Shown: positions 16,479 through 41,207 of the stretch, piece by piece
Position numbering within the stretch: position 1 is the stretch's first letter
Layout of the letters: each line of letters starts with the position of its first letter
Source of the DNA: a bacterium
GTDB taxonomy: Bacteria > Bacteroidota > Ignavibacteria > Kapaibacteriales > UBA7675
NCBI GenBank assembly: GCA_030430495.1
Contig: JAUIKM010000028.1
Location: forward strand, 1 to 64,000
Reading direction: 5' to 3'
DNA length: 64,000 nucleotides
The notes under the pieces: model-generated
Told to the model about the DNA's origin: nothing
The model's input: only the letters and a program-made list of their open reading frames with translations
Database searches by the model: none
Program-made: the position numbers and the translations under genes

Positions 16479-16620
16479 AGCGCTTCGCCTCCTCATTATT
16501 CATTCGGCGGCTTGCTTTTTCCTCTTGTTTGTCAGCGAGAGCGCAGCGGCATGCGGCGGGTTTGTGCAGCATCGGCGCGGCGCCGGTTTCGAACACGTCA
16601 CTGCGCGACAAACAAAAAAA
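16479..16620. repeat. dispersed intergenic element with both arms
   Basis: Left arm: CGCTTCGCCTCC, spacer, CGGCGGCTTGC and CTCTTGTTTGTCAGCG (16479-16537). Right arm, inverted: CACTGCGCGACAAACAAAA (near 16599-16617). Between them lie about 60 unrelated bases. It follows the ATP-grasp-like gene and precedes the decayed BACON-type copy. Confidence 0.6.
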
Positions 16621-16779: not shown

Positions 16780-17062
16780 CCAGCCGGCTTCGACCCCGAC
16801 CTCTCGCTGCAGGAAGTCGACGTCGACGCGCTGGACGCACCGACGGTACACGCCGGATGCGACCCCTGGTATTTCTCGGCCGATCACGAAGCGGTCGGCA
16901 AACATCCCGGCTCCGGCACGGCGCTGCATCCCGGCGTGATCTTCAAAAACGCTCAGCCGCGACGCCGAGGGCGCGCAGTTGCCGGCGGGCGTGTACGAAT
17001 TACGCCTGCAGATCGGCGGCGCCGGCGGCGGCCTGCGACGCAGCTTTGCGATCGTGCGATAA
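16780..17062 (+). pseudogene. remnant of a BACON/T9SS-type secreted protein gene
   Basis: In one frame the bases encode VDVDALDAPTVHAG then WYFSADHEAVGKHPGSGTAL and HPGVIF, matching a central block of the two intact downstream genes (VDALDF..., WYISADHEATG..., GTALVPGIIYE). From about 16957 the similarity continues in another frame with AGVYELRLQIGGAGGG and SFAIVR then TAA, the end of the T9SS sorting domain. Everything between, including the BACON domain, is missing, and so is the 5' part. This is therefore an internally deleted, frame-shifted relic of a third tandem copy. The trailer after its stop resembles the trailers of the intact copies. Confidence 0.85.
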
Positions 17063-17135
17063 TCGCCTGCGGATGGTTTCAGGCCTGAAATTCGTCTGTT
17101 TCCGACCGACTTCTCACTTCGGGCGCAGCGCCCTG
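17063..17135 (+). repeat. trailer repeat with hairpin, copy 1
   Basis: Contains CAGGCCTGAAATTCG and CGACTTCTCACTTCGGG, closely similar to the sequences after 20112 and 23076. It ends in a small hairpin (GGGCG CAG CGCCC, 17121-17133). It is probably the former 3' UTR and terminator of the pseudogene. Confidence 0.65.
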
Positions 17136-17279
17136 CTGTTGTTCCGACAGTTTTGTTTGCATGGCAGAAAAGTACATCCTATATTCAGCCGATCGCTGAA
17201 TTTGCTTTCGGGCCATTTAGCCAACGAACACCCGACGTTTCCCGGATTTTTCACTGCCGTTCCGAGGCGACGTCCCCAT

Positions 17280-17433
17280 ATCTGCAGCCGCTCGCAGCTG
17301 TTTACCCCTGTTCTTTCCTGCAGACGAGTACCTAATAATCCATCTAACAAAGCACAGCGATGCCGCACGGTAATGTTGCTGCATGTGCCTGCGCTGTTTC
17401 CCACCTTTTCATTCGAAATGGAGGCATGAATCT
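17280..17433 (+). repeat. conserved 5' leader, copy 1
   Basis: Shares with the region 20345-20496 the blocks GCAGCCGCTCGC, TTTCCTGCAGACG (exactly 120 bases before the start codon in both), CCATCTAACAAA and a purine-rich RBS (GGAGGC) followed by AATCT before ATG. The first block can form a small hairpin in both. It probably holds the transcription start and an mRNA leader shared by the family. Confidence 0.65.
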
Positions 17434-20112
17434 ATGTGTAATTTCTCGTTTTTCAGCCCGCCCGGCCGCATGTGGAAGATCATCATGTGCCTGGCTTTTG
17501 CAGTCAATTTGCAGTTTGCCGTGCCGCTGACGGCCAACCATCTGGTGGTGCTGAATCCTCAAGTCGACATCGATGCCAATGCATCCGCCCATGAATTCTG
17601 TGAATTGCTGCCGACAGACGTCAACGTCCTGGGCAACGCTTTCAATACTAACTATCCGGGCGCCGACTTCGGCATTTACCGCCGCGCCGAAGCGGTTTCC
17701 AGTGTCAACAAATCCTGCCTGCCGCAGGACGACGGCGGCGAGTTTCACGATTGTGAAGGGGAGTGTCCGTGCCCGACCCTCTCAAATCCATCCGAAGTGA
17801 TTTCCAATGGAATTTCCAGGGCGCGAATCACAGGCAACAACTCCGCTTCGGTCGGATTCGACTGGGTGAACATCGTCAATGCAAAATCGAACGTGATTCC
17901 CTCGGACTGTTGCTTGTGGGGAATCTGCGAGTTTTTCCTTCCCTGCCCGGCAAACTGCCAAATGGACTGCCAGGTCGACGGCTACGCCGGCAGCGCAAAC
18001 AACACGCTGGAGGTCTCGTTCACGCTTCAGGTCGTGGCGCCATCCGGTTCCGCCGTCGTCAGTTTCAACACGTCCACCTGGCTGACGGAGATTGACAACC
18101 CCGAAGCCGGCGCGGATGACGACGCGACGCCGCTGCCCTTTACGCTGGAAGTGAACGGCCAGCCCGTCACGCCCTACTCATCTGTCAGCATGAATGTTCT
18201 GGACGGTGAGTTAATCGATGTTTATCTCAACACGGATGTGAGCACATTCATCGGGCTGCCGGAAGACCCGAATCTGAGCAATCCTTGCCTGATGTACGAC
18301 CGTGCCGAAGCAGCGCTCAACGGCGCAATGTCCTTCCAGATTTCCGGTGCGCCTATCGCCGTCATCCCGCCGACGGTCGAATCCGAACCCTGCGGCATCG
18401 GCTGCACCTTCCCGCTCTTCTCGCTCGACATCGGCTCCGACATGGAACTGAGCGACCCGCTGCCCGCCGGCGACGAGTACTTTGATCCGGGCGACATGTA
18501 CGCCGACTTCGGCTGGGCCGCGCCGCCGATCGGCGGCGAAGACGGATTCCTGGACGATGAGAACATCTTCGCCGGATTCGATCGTTTCCCCGACGCGCCG
18601 GACCCGGTCAATCCGCCGGCAACGGCTGCGCCCGTCGGTCAGTTCTCCAGTGTTCCCGACATCGCCAAAGAGTACTTTGACCTGGACGGCAGCGACAACC
18701 TCAGTTTTGCGCTGTCCGGCCGCAGCTACGGCCCCGGCTTGCCTTCTATCCAGCAGCCCTACGACGTCTGCCTGCCCGAACCCAAATTCCTGATGTTGTC
18801 TTATGACGACGACAAAGCCACACACTACATCAGCAACGCTGTTTTGAGCGTGCCGTCCGAGGAAAGCAGCCCGCTGAATAATACCTATGGCCGCACCGGA
18901 CAGAACGATGAAATCGTCGGCTGGAATGTCTATCTCTCGCCCTTCGGCGTACCCGCCACGGTCGGCCACGAATACGGCCTGACGGACGAAGAGTGGCTGC
19001 ACAGCTATCTGGCCCCGAACCCCGACCTGATCAGCGAGCAGGATGACGACGACGTCGACGCGCTCGACTTCATCAACCCCGACGGCGGCTGTGAACTGTG
19101 GTACATCTCGGCCGATCACGAAGCCACGGGCATCGACCCCAACAGCGGCACGGCCCTGGTTCCCGGAATCATCTACGAAGTCACGCCCGGCGGACCGATT
19201 CCCGTCGTGGACCCCGTTTTCCACCTGGGTATTCCCCTCGGCGACATGGTTGATATAGACGCGTTTGAATTTGTCTGGCTCTGGGACCCGGCACAGACGC
19301 GCAACGGTGTGGCCCTGCTCTTCAGCGTCGATGAAGACGACCCGTTCACGGTGACGCTCGACGAGTCCGGCGGACTCGACCCGACGGTGATCTACTACTC
19401 GTTCCTGGACGGGAATTTCGACGTCTTCCTGGACAACTCAAACGAAGACATCGACGGCATCGCCGCCTGGCACTGTCCGCTGGCCGAGGATGCGATGGTC
19501 GGCAACGGCGATCCGCGCCTCTTCGTCAACCCGCTGGATATCAACTCCAGCGGCTCGCCGTCGACCCACGACGTGCTGATCGGCAACACCGCGCCCAATA
19601 CGACGCTCAATTGGAACGCTGCAACGACCTATCCCTGGATCACGATAAGCCAGCTCTCCGGCACGGGACCGGCCTGGATTCAGATCGATCTGGACGACAA
19701 CGTCGGCGGCACGCCGCGCAACGGCACGGTTGAGATCACGTCCAACAGCGCTTCCTGTCCGGACATCACGATCCACGTCTTCCAGAGCGACGTACCCAAA
19801 CGCGGAGCCGAGGACAGACTTGTCGAAAGCGATCCGGCAAGGCTGCTCACGCCGCAGCCGCACCCCGTCGCCGAATCGACCGTTTTCAGTTTTGCGCTTG
19901 AAAACGCGGCCGACGTCACGCTGGGCATCTACGACGTGACCGGACGGCGCGTGGCAACCCTGGCCGACGGCAGTTTCGCCGCAGGCGAACACCAGATTGA
20001 GTGGAACAACGGCGAGGGCAACGGTCCGGCGCTCGGCGCGGGCGTCTACGAACTGCGCCTGCAGCTGGACGGCGGTTTTGTGACGCAGCGCAGCTTCACG
20101 CTTATCCGCTGA
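17434..20112 (+). CDS. secreted BACON-domain protein with T9SS sorting domain (tandem copy 2)
   Basis: 892 residues. The ATG at 17434 follows GGAGGC and lines up with the start of the next paralogue. A hydrophobic signal (IIMCLAFAVNLQFAV) precedes a Cys-containing N-terminal domain. The middle is acidic, with likely Ca-binding loops (EYFDLDGSDN, EQDDDDVDALDF) and the block WYISADHEATGIDPNSGTAL. About 19603-19795 encodes a BACON-like domain (NWNAATTYPWITIS, GTVEITSNSA). The last about 89 residues are a T9SS type-A-like domain (LTPQPHPVAESTVFSF, LGIYDVTGRRVATL, AGVYELRLQ, RSFTLIR). Role unknown; expected on the surface or secreted. Confidence 0.82.
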   Translation: MCNFSFFSPPGRMWKIIMCLAFAVNLQFAVPLTANHLVVLNPQVDIDANASAHEFCELLPTDVNVLGNAFNTNYPGADFGIYRRAEAVSSVNKSCLPQDDGGEFHDCEGECPCPTLSNPSEVISNGISRARITGNNSASVGFDWVNIVNAKSNVIPSDCCLWGICEFFLPCPANCQMDCQVDGYAGSANNTLEVSFTLQVVAPSGSAVVSFNTSTWLTEIDNPEAGADDDATPLPFTLEVNGQPVTPYSSVSMNVLDGELIDVYLNTDVSTFIGLPEDPNLSNPCLMYDRAEAALNGAMSFQISGAPIAVIPPTVESEPCGIGCTFPLFSLDIGSDMELSDPLPAGDEYFDPGDMYADFGWAAPPIGGEDGFLDDENIFAGFDRFPDAPDPVNPPATAAPVGQFSSVPDIAKEYFDLDGSDNLSFALSGRSYGPGLPSIQQPYDVCLPEPKFLMLSYDDDKATHYISNAVLSVPSEESSPLNNTYGRTGQNDEIVGWNVYLSPFGVPATVGHEYGLTDEEWLHSYLAPNPDLISEQDDDDVDALDFINPDGGCELWYISADHEATGIDPNSGTALVPGIIYEVTPGGPIPVVDPVFHLGIPLGDMVDIDAFEFVWLWDPAQTRNGVALLFSVDEDDPFTVTLDESGGLDPTVIYYSFLDGNFDVFLDNSNEDIDGIAAWHCPLAEDAMVGNGDPRLFVNPLDINSSGSPSTHDVLIGNTAPNTTLNWNAATTYPWITISQLSGTGPAWIQIDLDDNVGGTPRNGTVEITSNSASCPDITIHVFQSDVPKRGAEDRLVESDPARLLTPQPHPVAESTVFSFALENAADVTLGIYDVTGRRVATLADGSFAAGEHQIEWNNGEGNGPALGAGVYELRLQLDGGFVTQRSFTLIR

Positions 20113-20200
20113 TAAGCGGCAACTGGCTTCAAGCCTGAAATCGGCCGTTTTTTGACCGACTTCTCACTTCGGGGCGTGGCGCGACTGAGCGCCGCGCCCC
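20113..20200 (+). terminator. trailer repeat with long hairpin, copy 2
   Basis: After the stop come AAGCCTGAAATCGGCCG, six T, then CGACTTCTCACTTC. They lead into a 12-base stem, GGGGCGTGGCGC (20171-20182) pairing with GCGCCGCGCCCC (20189-20200) through one G-U pair, around GACTGA. The following CTTTAC is only weakly T-rich. An almost identical trailer follows the next copy. Confidence 0.6.
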
Positions 20201-20496
20201 CTTTACAACACAAAAAAATGTTGCATTGCATAAAGATGGATGATATATTCACCCCATCGATACATTTTGTTTGCACGCCCGAAACAAACAAAAACACCTG
20301 ACGCTCTTCGGTATATCACTGCCATCCCGATACACCGACGCCATTTCACAGCCGCTCGCGGCAGTGTTTCCTGATATTTCCTGCAGACGCGTACCTATAC
20401 CCATCTAACAAAACACAACGTCGCAAAGCGGCAATGACTCCGCATGCACGTGTGATCATTTCCACCTTTTTCCGTAAAAAGGAGGCAAGAATCTCT
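20201..20496 (+). repeat. spacer with conserved 5' leader, copy 2
   Basis: The right part (20345-20496) repeats the leader of the preceding gene: CAGCCGCTCGCGGC, TTTCCTGCAGACG, CCATCTAACAAA and AAAAAGGAGGC before AATCTCT-ATG. The left part is AT-richer (ATGATATATTCACC, ATACATTTTGTTTGC) and may hold the promoter; TACATTTTG resembles the Bacteroidota TAnnTTTG element, but no firm -33 was identified. Confidence 0.55.
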
Positions 20497-23076
20497 ATGC
20501 GTACTATTAATTCAGCATTGAATTCAGCCGTACATTTTCACTATCTGTACGCTCTGGTTTTATTGATCCCCTTGCTGAGCGCAGCGCGCAGCTCGGCGCA
20601 GCATTTTGAGTTGATCGGATACACTGTCAATATCGGTGGTCAGGCTGTTGCAAGCGGACTTTGCCAGAATCTAAATGACAATGCAAATTATTTGGCGGCT
20701 GATTGGGATTTGCTATCTCCCACTGATTTCAGCGTTGCTCGCAACGCTTACGCTTCCATTAAAACTCCGGACTGGATCTGCGACTGTTCAAAAACCAATA
20801 AGGTCACAGCCCGGATTGAAGCTCGTGCGGCAGTCGGCGGAGTTCTAACTTCCACAGTAGGTATCGACTGGAAACACTGGGCGCAATCCTGGGCAAAGTG
20901 TGATGTGAATTCTTTTTCAGCGCAAGCATTGAGCAACATGACAATTGAACTTCATTTCCAGGTTGACGCTCCCTCAGGACAGGCATACTTTTCATACAAT
21001 GCGGGCATTTTTTCCGGTGCCGGTGGTAAACCCGAAAACAGCGAAGATGATAAAAGACATTCAGATCCCGTCGAGCTGATGGTCGACGGTGTTTCACTCA
21101 CAAATGGCATGTATTCATTTCCTGGTCCGACCGGTACAAATGGATGGAAATCTCAATCCTGGTCAGGAAATAGTACTCTTTCAAACGGCGCGATTGTCTC
21201 GGTAGTAGTCGGTTCCGGCCTCCTGGCCGAAATTGTGGATCCGGGCCGCGCCATGAGACCGTTTCCGCCTTTCTGTCCGTACAGCGACCAGGCCTCCGCT
21301 TCCTACTCCGGCGCAGTCATCCTACACTTGTCTCCAGTAACCACTCCTCAACCCGCCCCCGAAATCCCCCTGTGCCAGCTCGAATGCGATTATTTCACCT
21401 GGTCGACGGACATCGGCTCCGACACGGAGCTGAGCGACCCCTTCGTTGACGGCGACGAGTGTTTTGATCCCGGCGACATGTACGCCTACGCCTCAAAAAC
21501 GAGCATCGGTCAGGCCTGTATTGACGGGCTGCAGGACGACGAAGACATTTTTGCGGGATTCGACCCGTATCCGGACGCACCCGACGGCGCTTCTCCGCCG
21601 GCAAGCGCAGCGCCGGTAGAGCAGGATCAGCCAATTCCCATCATAGTCGAAGAGTATTTCGATCTTGACGGCAGCGACAATCTCGCTATCGCGCTGAGCG
21701 GCCTGCCGCTCGGACAGGTGATTCCGACTGCGAGCCTGAACAGCGCCTGTCTGTACTCACCCGAACATCTCTTCATCTCGATGGACGACGACGACCCCGA
21801 TCACTACACGAGCTCAAACCCGCCGAGCGCCCCTGTGTCTTCCGGCGGAATTATCTACGGCGAGACGGCAAATCAGGATGAAATCATCGGGCTCGACCTG
21901 CTGCCGACCGCACTGGCGCAGGGCCTGATTTATCGCTACTATGGAATGTCGGACGAAGAGTCGCTGCATCCGGGACTGGCGCCCAACCCGTCGCAAGCCG
22001 AGCCGGAACACGACGACGACATAGATGCACTCGACATCCATGAAACCAACTCCGGCTGCGACGTCTGGTACATCTCAGCCGACCACGAGGCGCGCGGATT
22101 TGATCCCGGTTCGGGCCTGCCGCTGAATCCGGGCATCATCTACGAGGTCCAGCCGGGCGGCGTCATCCCCGTCGTTGATCCAGTAGCACACCTCGCCATT
22201 CCCGGCGGCGACGAAGTGGACATCGACGCGTTTGAATTTGTCTCGCTTTTTGATCCGCAGTCAAGCCAGCCGGCGCTGGCGCTCCTGTTCAGCGTCGATC
22301 AGGATGATCCGCAGACGCCGGAAGACGAAAGCGGCGGACTGGACAACAGCGTCATCTATTACTCTTTCATGGATGGAACTTTCGGCGAGTTCTTCGATTA
22401 CAACGGCAACGATATCGACGCGCTGACCGCCTGGTGCGGCCCACTCTACCAGCAGACGCTTGCTCAACGCACGGAACCGACGCTGTACATCGAACTGACC
22501 GAATACCAGGTCGGCTCGCTCGCACAATCGCTCGAGATTTTCATCGGCAACGCAGTTCCCGGCACAAACCACCTGTTGAACTGGACGGCGACTTCCTCCG
22601 CTCCCTGGATCACGCTTACGCCGGACAACGGCACCGGCGTCGGCATTATGCACGCCGACGTGGATGCCAACACAAGCGATAATCCGCGCGAGGCGACCAT
22701 CACGATTCAGGCGGAAGGCACATGCGATCAGGTCGTCATTGTCGTCCACCAAAGCAACGTGCCGAAACGCGGCGTGGATGAGATTGCAGCCGACGTTCCG
22801 GTACGACTGCTCACGCCGCAGCCACACCCCGTCGCCGAATCGACGGTGTTCAGTTTTGTGCTTGATGACGCGGCCGACATCACGCTCGGCATCTACGACG
22901 TGACCGGGCGGCGCGTGGCGACGCTGGCCGACGGCAATTTTGCCGCAGGCGAACATCACATTGAGTGGAGCAACGGCCAGGGCAACGGTCCGGCGCTCGG
23001 CGCGGGCGTCTACGAACTGCGCCTACAGGTGGGCGACGGCTTCGTGACGCAGCGCAGTTTCACGCTCATCCGCTGA
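20497..23076 (+). CDS. secreted BACON-domain protein with T9SS sorting domain (tandem copy 3)
   Basis: 859 residues, paralogue of the preceding gene. RBS AAGGAGGC sits about 10 bases before the ATG. Signal peptide: LYALVLLIPLLSAARSSAQ. The N-terminal 270 residues are clearly more diverged from copy 2 than the rest, and the coding sequence there looks less GC-rich. From STDIGSDTELSDP on, the two proteins track closely: EYFDLDGSDNLAIALSG, WYISADHEARGFDPGSGLPL, a BACON-like domain (NWTATSSAPWITLTPDNG, EATITIQAEG) and the T9SS domain (LTPQPHPVAESTVFSF ... RSFTLIR). A variable exposed N-terminus on a constant export module is one reading. Function unknown. Confidence 0.82.
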   Translation: MRTINSALNSAVHFHYLYALVLLIPLLSAARSSAQHFELIGYTVNIGGQAVASGLCQNLNDNANYLAADWDLLSPTDFSVARNAYASIKTPDWICDCSKTNKVTARIEARAAVGGVLTSTVGIDWKHWAQSWAKCDVNSFSAQALSNMTIELHFQVDAPSGQAYFSYNAGIFSGAGGKPENSEDDKRHSDPVELMVDGVSLTNGMYSFPGPTGTNGWKSQSWSGNSTLSNGAIVSVVVGSGLLAEIVDPGRAMRPFPPFCPYSDQASASYSGAVILHLSPVTTPQPAPEIPLCQLECDYFTWSTDIGSDTELSDPFVDGDECFDPGDMYAYASKTSIGQACIDGLQDDEDIFAGFDPYPDAPDGASPPASAAPVEQDQPIPIIVEEYFDLDGSDNLAIALSGLPLGQVIPTASLNSACLYSPEHLFISMDDDDPDHYTSSNPPSAPVSSGGIIYGETANQDEIIGLDLLPTALAQGLIYRYYGMSDEESLHPGLAPNPSQAEPEHDDDIDALDIHETNSGCDVWYISADHEARGFDPGSGLPLNPGIIYEVQPGGVIPVVDPVAHLAIPGGDEVDIDAFEFVSLFDPQSSQPALALLFSVDQDDPQTPEDESGGLDNSVIYYSFMDGTFGEFFDYNGNDIDALTAWCGPLYQQTLAQRTEPTLYIELTEYQVGSLAQSLEIFIGNAVPGTNHLLNWTATSSAPWITLTPDNGTGVGIMHADVDANTSDNPREATITIQAEGTCDQVVIVVHQSNVPKRGVDEIAADVPVRLLTPQPHPVAESTVFSFVLDDAADITLGIYDVTGRRVATLADGNFAAGEHHIEWSNGQGNGPALGAGVYELRLQVGDGFVTQRSFTLIR

Positions 23077-23162
23077 TAAACGGCAACTGGTTTGAAGCCT
23101 GAAACCGGCCGTTTTTTGACCGACTTCTCATTGGGGCGTGGCGCGACTGAGCGCCGCGCCCC
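23077..23162 (+). terminator. trailer repeat with long hairpin, copy 3
   Basis: Nearly identical to the trailer after 20112: GAAGCCTGAAACCGGCCG, six T, CGACTTCTCATT. Then the stem GGGGCGTGGCGC (23133-23144) and GCGCCGCGCCCC (23151-23162) around GACTGA, followed by TCTCGTTT. Probably the 3' end of the mRNA. Confidence 0.6.
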
Positions 23163-23167
23163 TCTCG

Positions 23168-23297
23168 TTTCACTCGGTGGCTTGCTCTTTTTCTTTCTGC
23201 TCGTCATCGCACCGGAATGAAACAGCAGCTCAGCGACTTCAGGCCCGTCGAGCGGTGACAAACAAGAGGAAAAAAACAAGCCCGAAAGGGCGAAGTG
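23168..23297. repeat. dispersed intergenic element, clearest inverted pair
   Basis: Left arm CGGTGGCTTGC, TTTTTCTTTCTGCTCGTC (about 23174-23206). Right arm GGTGACAAACAAGAGG, AAAAAAACAAGCCCG (about 23253-23284) is its imperfect reverse complement. The arms enclose about 45 bases. It fills much of the 480-base gap before the WD40 gene; I see no gene in that gap. Confidence 0.65.
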
Positions 23298-23556: not shown

Positions 23557-25155
23557 ATGAACGCTAGCCATGCGCATGCATGTTCGCGCCCCATTGCGCC
23601 CGCGGCGTGGACTTTACTTGCAGCAGTCCTCTGTCTTTTCTGTCAATTTTCAACGGCCGCGGCGGTTGAGTCCTACGTGCTCGAAGGCCACACCAGCACG
23701 GTGTTTATGGCCAACCTCAACGCCGACGCCTCGCGCGCCGTCAGCGGCAGCAGCGACCAGTTTATCCGGCTGTGGGATCCCTTCCGCACCGAAAGCATCA
23801 AAGATGAATTTGCGCACCTGACGGCGGTCTACACGGCGCAGTACAGCCCGGACTACGACTGCATCGTCACCAGCGGCTGGGACGGCCTGATCCTGCGCTG
23901 GGATCCGGACGACCTGACGCTGAAAGACACGGTGGTGCGCCACCAGGGCGACGTACTGACGGTCAGTTTTTCGGGCGACGGCACGCGCGTGGCAAGCGCC
24001 GGACGCGACACGGAGATTCTGATCACGGACCCGAACACACAAACGGTGGTGCAGCGCATCGCCATCGAGACTTCGGTTGTTCAGTCCGTGGCGATCAACA
24101 ATGACGCCACGCGCGTGGCAAGCACAACAACGGACGGCTACGTGCAGATCTGGGACGCGACCAACGGCAGTTACCTTGGCCAGGTCGGCGGCAACGAAGG
24201 CGGCACGCGCTGGGTGGAGTTTCACCCCGACGGACGCCTGGCGACGGGCGGACTCGATTACAACATCATCCTCTGGGACCTCAATAACTTCAACGAGGCG
24301 GCGCGCTTTACCGGCCACGAAGGCACGGTCAACAGCGTAAAGTTCAGCAAAGACGGAGCGCGCATGGTTTCTGCCGCGGGCGACGCCACGGTGCGTGTCT
24401 GGAAGGTGGAAGACCAGTCGGAAATCGAGAAGCTGGAAGGGCACAGCGGCTCGGTGCGCTACGCCAACTTCGGTTCCAACAGCGGTACGGTTATCAGCAG
24501 CGGCTCCGACTTCAACGTCATCGTCTGGTACCTGGAATCGGCCGAAGTGGAAGTGGTCGGCGAGACGCCGGGAGTCGTCGACTTCGGCGACGTGCCGCGC
24601 GACACGCAGGGATCGGCGACGCTGCAACTGCGCAACATCGGCAACGGCGAAATCACGATCAGCGGCGTGGAATACACGGACAACCCGCGCGACGTCTTCG
24701 CACACGGCTTCAGCAATCCCATTGCGATGCAGCCGCAGGAAGTCAAAGATATTCCGCTGTTGTTCACGCCGGACGAACTGGGCGAAATCAGCGGCACGCT
24801 GGCGGTGATTTTTGAGGGCGGCCTGACGCCGCTGTTCATCGAAACAACCGGCAAAGGCGTGCTGCGCGTCGGCGTCGACGAAGGTCCGCTGGAACCGCAG
24901 AGCGAACTGACCATTGCGCCGAATCCGGCGGACGATGTGATTCAGGTGGGATTTGCGCTGCGCGAAGCGGCGGAAATCAGCCTGCGCGTGCTGGACTTCC
25001 GCGGACAGACGGCCTTTGAAATCGGCCTGGGCACGCTGGAGCCGGGCGAACACCTGCACGCGGTGGAGACGAGCGGGCTGGCCAACGGCAACTACATGCT
25101 GGAGCTGCGCGCGGGCGGCCACCGCTACAGCAGCAAACTTCAGGTCAAGCGCTGA
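23557..25155 (+). CDS. secreted WD40 beta-propeller protein with T9SS sorting domain
   Basis: 532 residues. The signal peptide (WTLLAAVLCLFCQFSTAAA) is followed by about seven WD40 repeats (residues 40-325) with motifs such as AVSGSSDQFIRLWDP, VTSGWDGLILRWDP, ATGGLDYNIILWDL and VSAAGDATVRVWKV. Next is a choice-of-anchor D/ASH-type domain (about 335-440; GVVDFGDVPRDTQGSATL). It ends in a T9SS type-A-like domain (LTIAPNPADDVIQVGF, LRVLDFRGQTAFEIGL, NYMLELRAGG). WD40 propellers are platforms for protein binding; an exported one presumably acts on the surface. The ATG at 23557 is the only start that places the signal at the N-terminus. Confidence 0.85.
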   Translation: MNASHAHACSRPIAPAAWTLLAAVLCLFCQFSTAAAVESYVLEGHTSTVFMANLNADASRAVSGSSDQFIRLWDPFRTESIKDEFAHLTAVYTAQYSPDYDCIVTSGWDGLILRWDPDDLTLKDTVVRHQGDVLTVSFSGDGTRVASAGRDTEILITDPNTQTVVQRIAIETSVVQSVAINNDATRVASTTTDGYVQIWDATNGSYLGQVGGNEGGTRWVEFHPDGRLATGGLDYNIILWDLNNFNEAARFTGHEGTVNSVKFSKDGARMVSAAGDATVRVWKVEDQSEIEKLEGHSGSVRYANFGSNSGTVISSGSDFNVIVWYLESAEVEVVGETPGVVDFGDVPRDTQGSATLQLRNIGNGEITISGVEYTDNPRDVFAHGFSNPIAMQPQEVKDIPLLFTPDELGEISGTLAVIFEGGLTPLFIETTGKGVLRVGVDEGPLEPQSELTIAPNPADDVIQVGFALREAAEISLRVLDFRGQTAFEIGLGTLEPGEHLHAVETSGLANGNYMLELRAGGHRYSSKLQVKR

Positions 25156-41105: not shown

Positions 41106-41207
41106 CCGCTTCGCCTCCTCGCATCCGCTTCGGCGGCTTGCTTTTCCTTCTTGTTCGTCAGCGGGTGCGGCGTTTCGCGCCGCCGATTCCGGTCGACGAC
41201 AAAACAG
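41106..41207. repeat. dispersed intergenic element
   Basis: CGCTTCGCCTCCTCG, spacer, CGGCGGCTTGC and CTTCTTGTTCGTCAGCG (41106-41163), then about 30 bases on a weaker inverted arm, GACGACAAAACAGCGC. The remaining space to 41435 holds no gene that I can support. Confidence 0.58.

Follow-up and report, generated by a model that had tools for sequence, protein, structure and literature searches.

Some cargo proteins of the type IX secretion system (T9SS) in Bacteroidota carry a signal peptide, outward modules, BACON (PF13004) linkers and a C-terminal immunoglobulin (Ig)-like tail, the sorting domain TIGR04183. BACON is regarded as an Ig-like linker that sets the active module at a distance from the cell surface, ligand binding by the domain being unproven (PMC6949934, PMC12853789). 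In Porphyromonas gingivalis, parts of paralogous T9SS surface proteins that have a common C-terminal sorting signal are reshuffled by recombination, and these proteins offer a precedent for allelic exchange or gene conversion among proteins of this kind (PMC5266723). A tandem family of proteins resembling such cargo was analyzed in a 64-kb stretch of DNA (the window) from a bacterium of the Kapaibacteriaceae with a genome of 5.6 Mb. Three copies follow each other on the + strand: a relic (16780-17064), gene 1 (17434-20112, 892 amino acids) and gene 2 (20497-23076, 859 amino acids). The array is best explained, with a probability of about 0.6, as an old family of exported surface proteins in which tail and terminator were exchanged between the intact genes at a later time. 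In P. gingivalis the exchange varies adhesin and antigen segments between strains (PMC5266723), whereas the tract at this locus is made up of an export tail and a terminator, is common to two tandem genes, and belongs to an environmental lineage.

Tandem copies and their flanks

An earlier note, made from the sequence of the window, had described two full genes and one deleted, frame-shifted relic in tandem, and the alignment of the relic pieces agrees with that description. Positions 16806-16947 match gene 1 at 19038-19179, and 16954-17123 match 20007-20173; approximately 830 nt are lost in between, and the reading frame differs from one piece to the other. No sequence is left from upstream of the middle of the core domain, the first half of the protein being missing. 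The relic thus consists of a fragment from the second half of the core domain (E 1.2e-12 against the core domain profile), the deletion, the frame change, the final ~30 residues of the tail, beginning near 16970, and a stop codon. The central block attributed to all three copies reads WYFSADHEA in the relic instead of WYISADHEA.

The leader sequence TTTCCTGCAGACG is found at 17314 and 20377; in each case the start codon (17434 in gene 1, 20497 in gene 2) follows at a distance of exactly 120 bases, as reported earlier. The blocks cover positions 17314-17334 (TTTCCTGCAGACGAGTACCTA) and 20377-20397 (TTTCCTGCAGACGCGTACCTA) on the + strand, and a GGAGG ribosome site is found at both start codons. 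The two leaders are 73% identical over 146 nt, with a local score of 77 versus a shuffled maximum of 14. The sequence has two matches in the window, none being expected by chance, and no convincing match elsewhere in the 5.6-Mb genome. The trailer hairpin GGGGCGTGGCGCGACTGAGCGCCGCGCCCC, 30 nt long, is identical at 20171-20200 and 23133-23162 on the + strand, has no chance match, and is not found elsewhere in the genome. Both hairpins fold at about -30 kcal/mol, far better than shuffled sequence (z -5.2 and -4.0). Neither leader nor trailer matched a known RNA family in Rfam.

The spacer between relic and gene 1 (17065-17433, + strand) contains the remains of a trailer, followed by the leader of gene 1. 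Of this trailer the upstream half alone is kept (17074-17123, 82% identity over 50 nt) and the hairpin is absent (folding z -0.28). The trailer hairpin is thus duplicated, as had been proposed, after the two intact genes and missing after the relic. The two spacers, relic-gene 1 and gene 1-gene 2, are homologous throughout (66% identity, local score 104 versus a shuffled maximum of 17). The likeness of leaders and trailers is therefore clearly above background, and the homology of the spacers over their whole length indicates that whole transcription units were duplicated with their flanks, in line with the unit of duplication suggested before. The duplicated unit took in promoter-side and terminator-side DNA. 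Two or more such duplications would have occurred in the lineage, after which one copy decayed through deletion.

Uneven divergence of the intact genes

Gene 1 encodes, in order, a putative signal peptide, an N-terminal part (N-part, about residues 36-320), a core domain (327-683), a BACON domain (726-784) and a FlgD_ig/T9SS-like tail (799-892). Gene 2 has the same architecture (core 300-650, BACON 695-752, tail 767-859). Amino-acid identity between the two proteins varies widely among segments, being 28% in the N-part, 55% in the core, 32% in BACON and 85% in the tail. Fourfold degenerate sites are 27, 51, 50 and 81% identical in the same segments, the difference between tail and core being significant (Fisher p 0.003). 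Genes 1 and 2 are 47-49% identical to the single full-length relative (L051) found in one other genome of the family, Candidatus Kapaibacterium IP29b_bin.46, which belongs to another genus. Judged from these figures the distance between the two genes is only slightly smaller than that to the single-copy relative, although the core tree places them as sisters (support 89/51). The duplication is considered old because identity is down to 28% in the N-part and 55% in the core, and silent sites are near saturation. Of the "ongoing gain and loss of a surface protein" proposed in the earlier note, loss is documented by the decayed copy; ongoing gain finds no support, the duplication being old. Gene 1 and gene 2 would have drifted apart after it, mostly in the N-part.

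The 3' ends of the genes behave differently. Positions 19828-20200 and 22792-23162 (+ strand), which span the tail, stop codon, trailer and hairpin, are identical at 335 of 373 positions (89.8%), with 2 gapped bases. In-register 30-nt bins climb from 10-23 to 24-30 identities at about 19837, and the left edge of the tract is consequently sharp and placed inside coding sequence. The maximal identical segment is 192, whereas 2000 shuffles gave at most 45. Homology 3' of gene 2 stops at the hairpin, so that the right end of the tract offers no separate test. Constraint on the tail alone does not explain 85% identity, since the tails of gene 1 and gene 2 are each only 31-33% identical to that of L051. 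High identity extending to silent and non-coding sites, a sharp left edge and an otherwise diverged pair are the features looked for in gene conversion. The match of tail and trailer is best read as the mark of a later, separate event, gene conversion or exchange, by which the tract would have been copied from one gene into the other. The result would be diverged outward modules mounted on nearly identical export tails. The strong tail-and-trailer identity, belonging to a separate later tract, does not date the duplication.

A simple recent duplication of the whole unit, which corresponds to the gain and loss of the earlier note, with positive selection driving fast change in the outward half and with tail and trailer keeping their original identity, would fit with tails and trailers 90% identical, leaders 73% identical, and the N-part as the most divergent segment. 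Fast amino-acid change, however, cannot explain silent-site saturation, fourfold sites being 50-51% identical in core and BACON versus 81% in the tail. The spacer is also only 66% identical, and the genes are nearly as distant from each other as each is from the other genus. This explanation is already disfavoured, and we hold it very unlikely.

The likeness of leaders and trailers may be ascribed instead to purifying selection on regulatory elements (promoter, attenuator or terminator), with no exchange. The leaders, which contain long invariant blocks, are indeed more alike (73%) than silent sites (27-51%), and the hairpins are identical. Yet silent positions of tail codons are part of the tract, the left edge of which is within coding sequence, the flanks of L051 show no similarity to the leaders and trailers of gene 1 and gene 2, and the genome has no further copy of the motifs. 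Selection is thus unlikely as an account of the whole pattern. It is plausible for the leader alone, the similarity of which could reflect either selection or exchange.

The N-part of gene 2 (20497-21351, + strand) has an aberrant composition, which had escaped the earlier note. The GC content at third codon positions (GC3) is ~0.47 (range 0.47-0.54) versus a median of 0.75 for the window; the change in composition has its edge near 21250-21350, and the first 750-nt coding window of the gene has the lowest GC3 of the 90 windows in the 64 kb. This hints that the segment was replaced from elsewhere. The genes may have arrived separately, or outward modules may be swapped as cassettes, the N-part of gene 2 having recombined from another lineage into a resident copy which kept its leader and tail. 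The low GC3 and an N-part identity of 28% next to a leader identity of 73% speak for such a swap. Against it, homology can still be recognised in the N-part of gene 2 and the architecture is unchanged, no donor sequence was found, and low GC at gene starts can have other causes. As a full account of the locus the swap seems doubtful, though it and the later exchange of tail and terminator in an old family may both be true together. If the latter is correct, the locus is a clear case of an export tail and a terminator homogenised between old paralogues, and near-identical tails and trailers are unfit for dating duplications of genes of this type.

The core domain and the putative export tail

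The WYISADHEA stretch, correctly noted before as a shared central block, is part of a much larger unit, an acidic core domain of ~350 amino acids which is otherwise found mainly in planctomycetes, a context that had been overlooked. The domain has no match in Pfam or NCBIfam. It features the motifs FSxDIGSDxELSDP, FDPGDxY, FDLDGxD, DDDxDxLD, DHEA and DESGGL. Twenty-two full-length members, including genes 1 and 2, align end to end, the relic being partial, and ~70 columns are conserved in at least 90% of the 22 sequences, many of them Asp, Gly, Ser or Pro.

The core domain was found in none of 394 other Bacteroidota genomes, the Kapaibacteriaceae genome analyzed being the sole carrier in an even sample of 395. 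It resides in 21 of 397 genomes of a Phycisphaerae sample and in 2 of 392 of a sample of the planctomycete phylum, one of which is the starting genome; one planctomycete carrier belongs to another class. The N-part of the gene 1 and gene 2 proteins is likewise common to several planctomycete proteins. No match to the core was detected in viral contigs or in phage or plasmid records, and comparison with the L051 locus revealed no synteny beyond the family genes, apart from a single weak match to an unrelated gene. In Phycisphaerae secreted proteins the core can be aligned end to end with that of the proteins described here, and several also have the N-part. The Phycisphaerae proteins differ in having no BACON domain, in those scanned with Pfam, and in having other ends, different fronts or two copies of the core. 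Dockerin-like repeats are found at the end of several of them (L052, L062 and L070), in L052 and others by reading. The core lies behind a subtilisin-like front, recognized by eye, in L072, is present in two copies in L067, and is part of proteins longer than 2700 amino acids in L073 and L075. A large, strongly conserved secreted-protein domain, unnamed in current family libraries, is therefore found in two phyla with different C-terminal ends, dockerin-like in one and T9SS-like in the other. The distribution suggests that a planctomycete-type module was acquired by Kapaibacteriaceae, presumably by horizontal transfer, and joined to a Bacteroidota linker and export tail.

The fold of the core was approached by modelling. 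Two structure predictions were poor, with mean predicted local distance difference test (pLDDT) values of 43.9 and 48.3; in the core model (48.3), the second of the two and restricted to four input sequences, the C-terminal part reached 66-77. Structural matches of the better half of this low-confidence model are mostly beta-propellers, with Z at most 6.7. Foldseek with the core model gave no match at E <= 0.001 (best E 0.013), and nothing significant was found by sequence among solved structures. Two units of an internal repeat align within the core (hhalign P 1.4e-4). The evidence for a beta-propeller is weak. The numerous invariant Asp residues probably hold calcium. A surface binding or scaffold role is the most likely one for the core, and a propeller-like, calcium-rich, surface-displayed binding or scaffold module is the best guess, with moderate to low confidence. 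N-part and core would both face outward as such a module.

The BACON domain suspected in the full copies is above the Pfam gathering cut-off of 25 in both proteins (30.0 bits in gene 1, 36.8 in gene 2) and in L051 (36.0 bits). A hydrophobic N-terminal stretch, a candidate signal peptide, was read by eye in both proteins, whose C-terminal ends are above the cut-off of 27 for FlgD_ig (PF13860), with 32.1 and 28.0 bits. The genome encodes SprA (934.6 bits with its frame neighbours, cut-off 200) and PorU (872.5 bits, cut-off 420), and ~60 of its proteins have similar C-terminal tails. The proteins resemble T9SS cargo of other Bacteroidota in their putative signal peptide, outward modules, BACON and C-terminal Ig-like tail, and in the presence of SprA and PorU. 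They differ in having outward modules without a match in Pfam or NCBIfam, and a tail that fits FlgD_ig better than TIGR04183. Given the ~60 similar ends and SprA and PorU scores well above cut-off, export by the T9SS is likely. The T9SS end proposed in the earlier note scores above the cut-off of FlgD_ig and below that of TIGR04183; the two proteins are called T9SS-like here and are not filed as TIGR04183 members.

Several points weigh against an old, exported family with later tail-terminator exchange. Tail scores of 18.0 and 17.8 bits are under the TIGR04183 (T9SS type A) cut-off of 23, and FlgD_ig alone does not prove T9SS export, even if the TIGR04183 model may simply fit this lineage poorly, as the ~60 similar tails in the genome suggest. 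The support for gene 1 and gene 2 as sisters is moderate. Part of the conversion signal could also be produced by selection for an identical tail together with a common regulatory hairpin. Changes in copy number cannot be placed in time, only two Kapaibacteriaceae genomes with the gene being available. Weak support at the base of the core tree leaves the direction of transfer between phyla unproven. Both structure models are poor, and ligand, calcium site and fold of the core are predictions.

A bolder extension is that an uncatalogued, calcium-rich, propeller-like binding module of ~350 amino acids passed from Planctomycetota into Kapaibacteriaceae, where it received a Bacteroidota export tail. 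Tail and terminator would then form a recombining cassette kept uniform by conversion, with the outward N-part swapped or diversified, and the locus would let an environmental bacterium vary its surface by means of cassettes. We regard this scenario as quite unlikely in its entirety.

Dispersed repeat and neighbouring gene

The array is flanked by copies of a dispersed intergenic repeat, TGACAAACAAGAGGAAAAA(G)CAAGCC, found at no fewer than 168 sites in the genome (up to 3 mismatches) versus 4 for the reversed control. In the window the repeat is located at 16508-16620, 23180-23282 and 41142-41160, and near 1489, 12318, 52512 and 59323; loci L085-L096 belong to it as well. Several copies consist of two facing arms ~80 nt apart, followed by GCCGCC...GGCGAAGCGCTC. 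The repeat has no Rfam match and looks like a palindromic element akin to miniature inverted-repeat transposable elements (MITEs) or bacterial interspersed mosaic elements (BIMEs). The inverted repeats at 16516-16537 and 23253-23274 were considered as the ends of a mobile unit carrying the array, and rejected, because both are arms of the dispersed repeat, which recurs across the genome and at several other places in the window.

The gene downstream of the array (23557-25155) is not a paralogue of the tandem family. Its product is a WD40-repeat protein that also contains a segment of choice-of-anchor-D-like type and ends in a T9SS-like tail.

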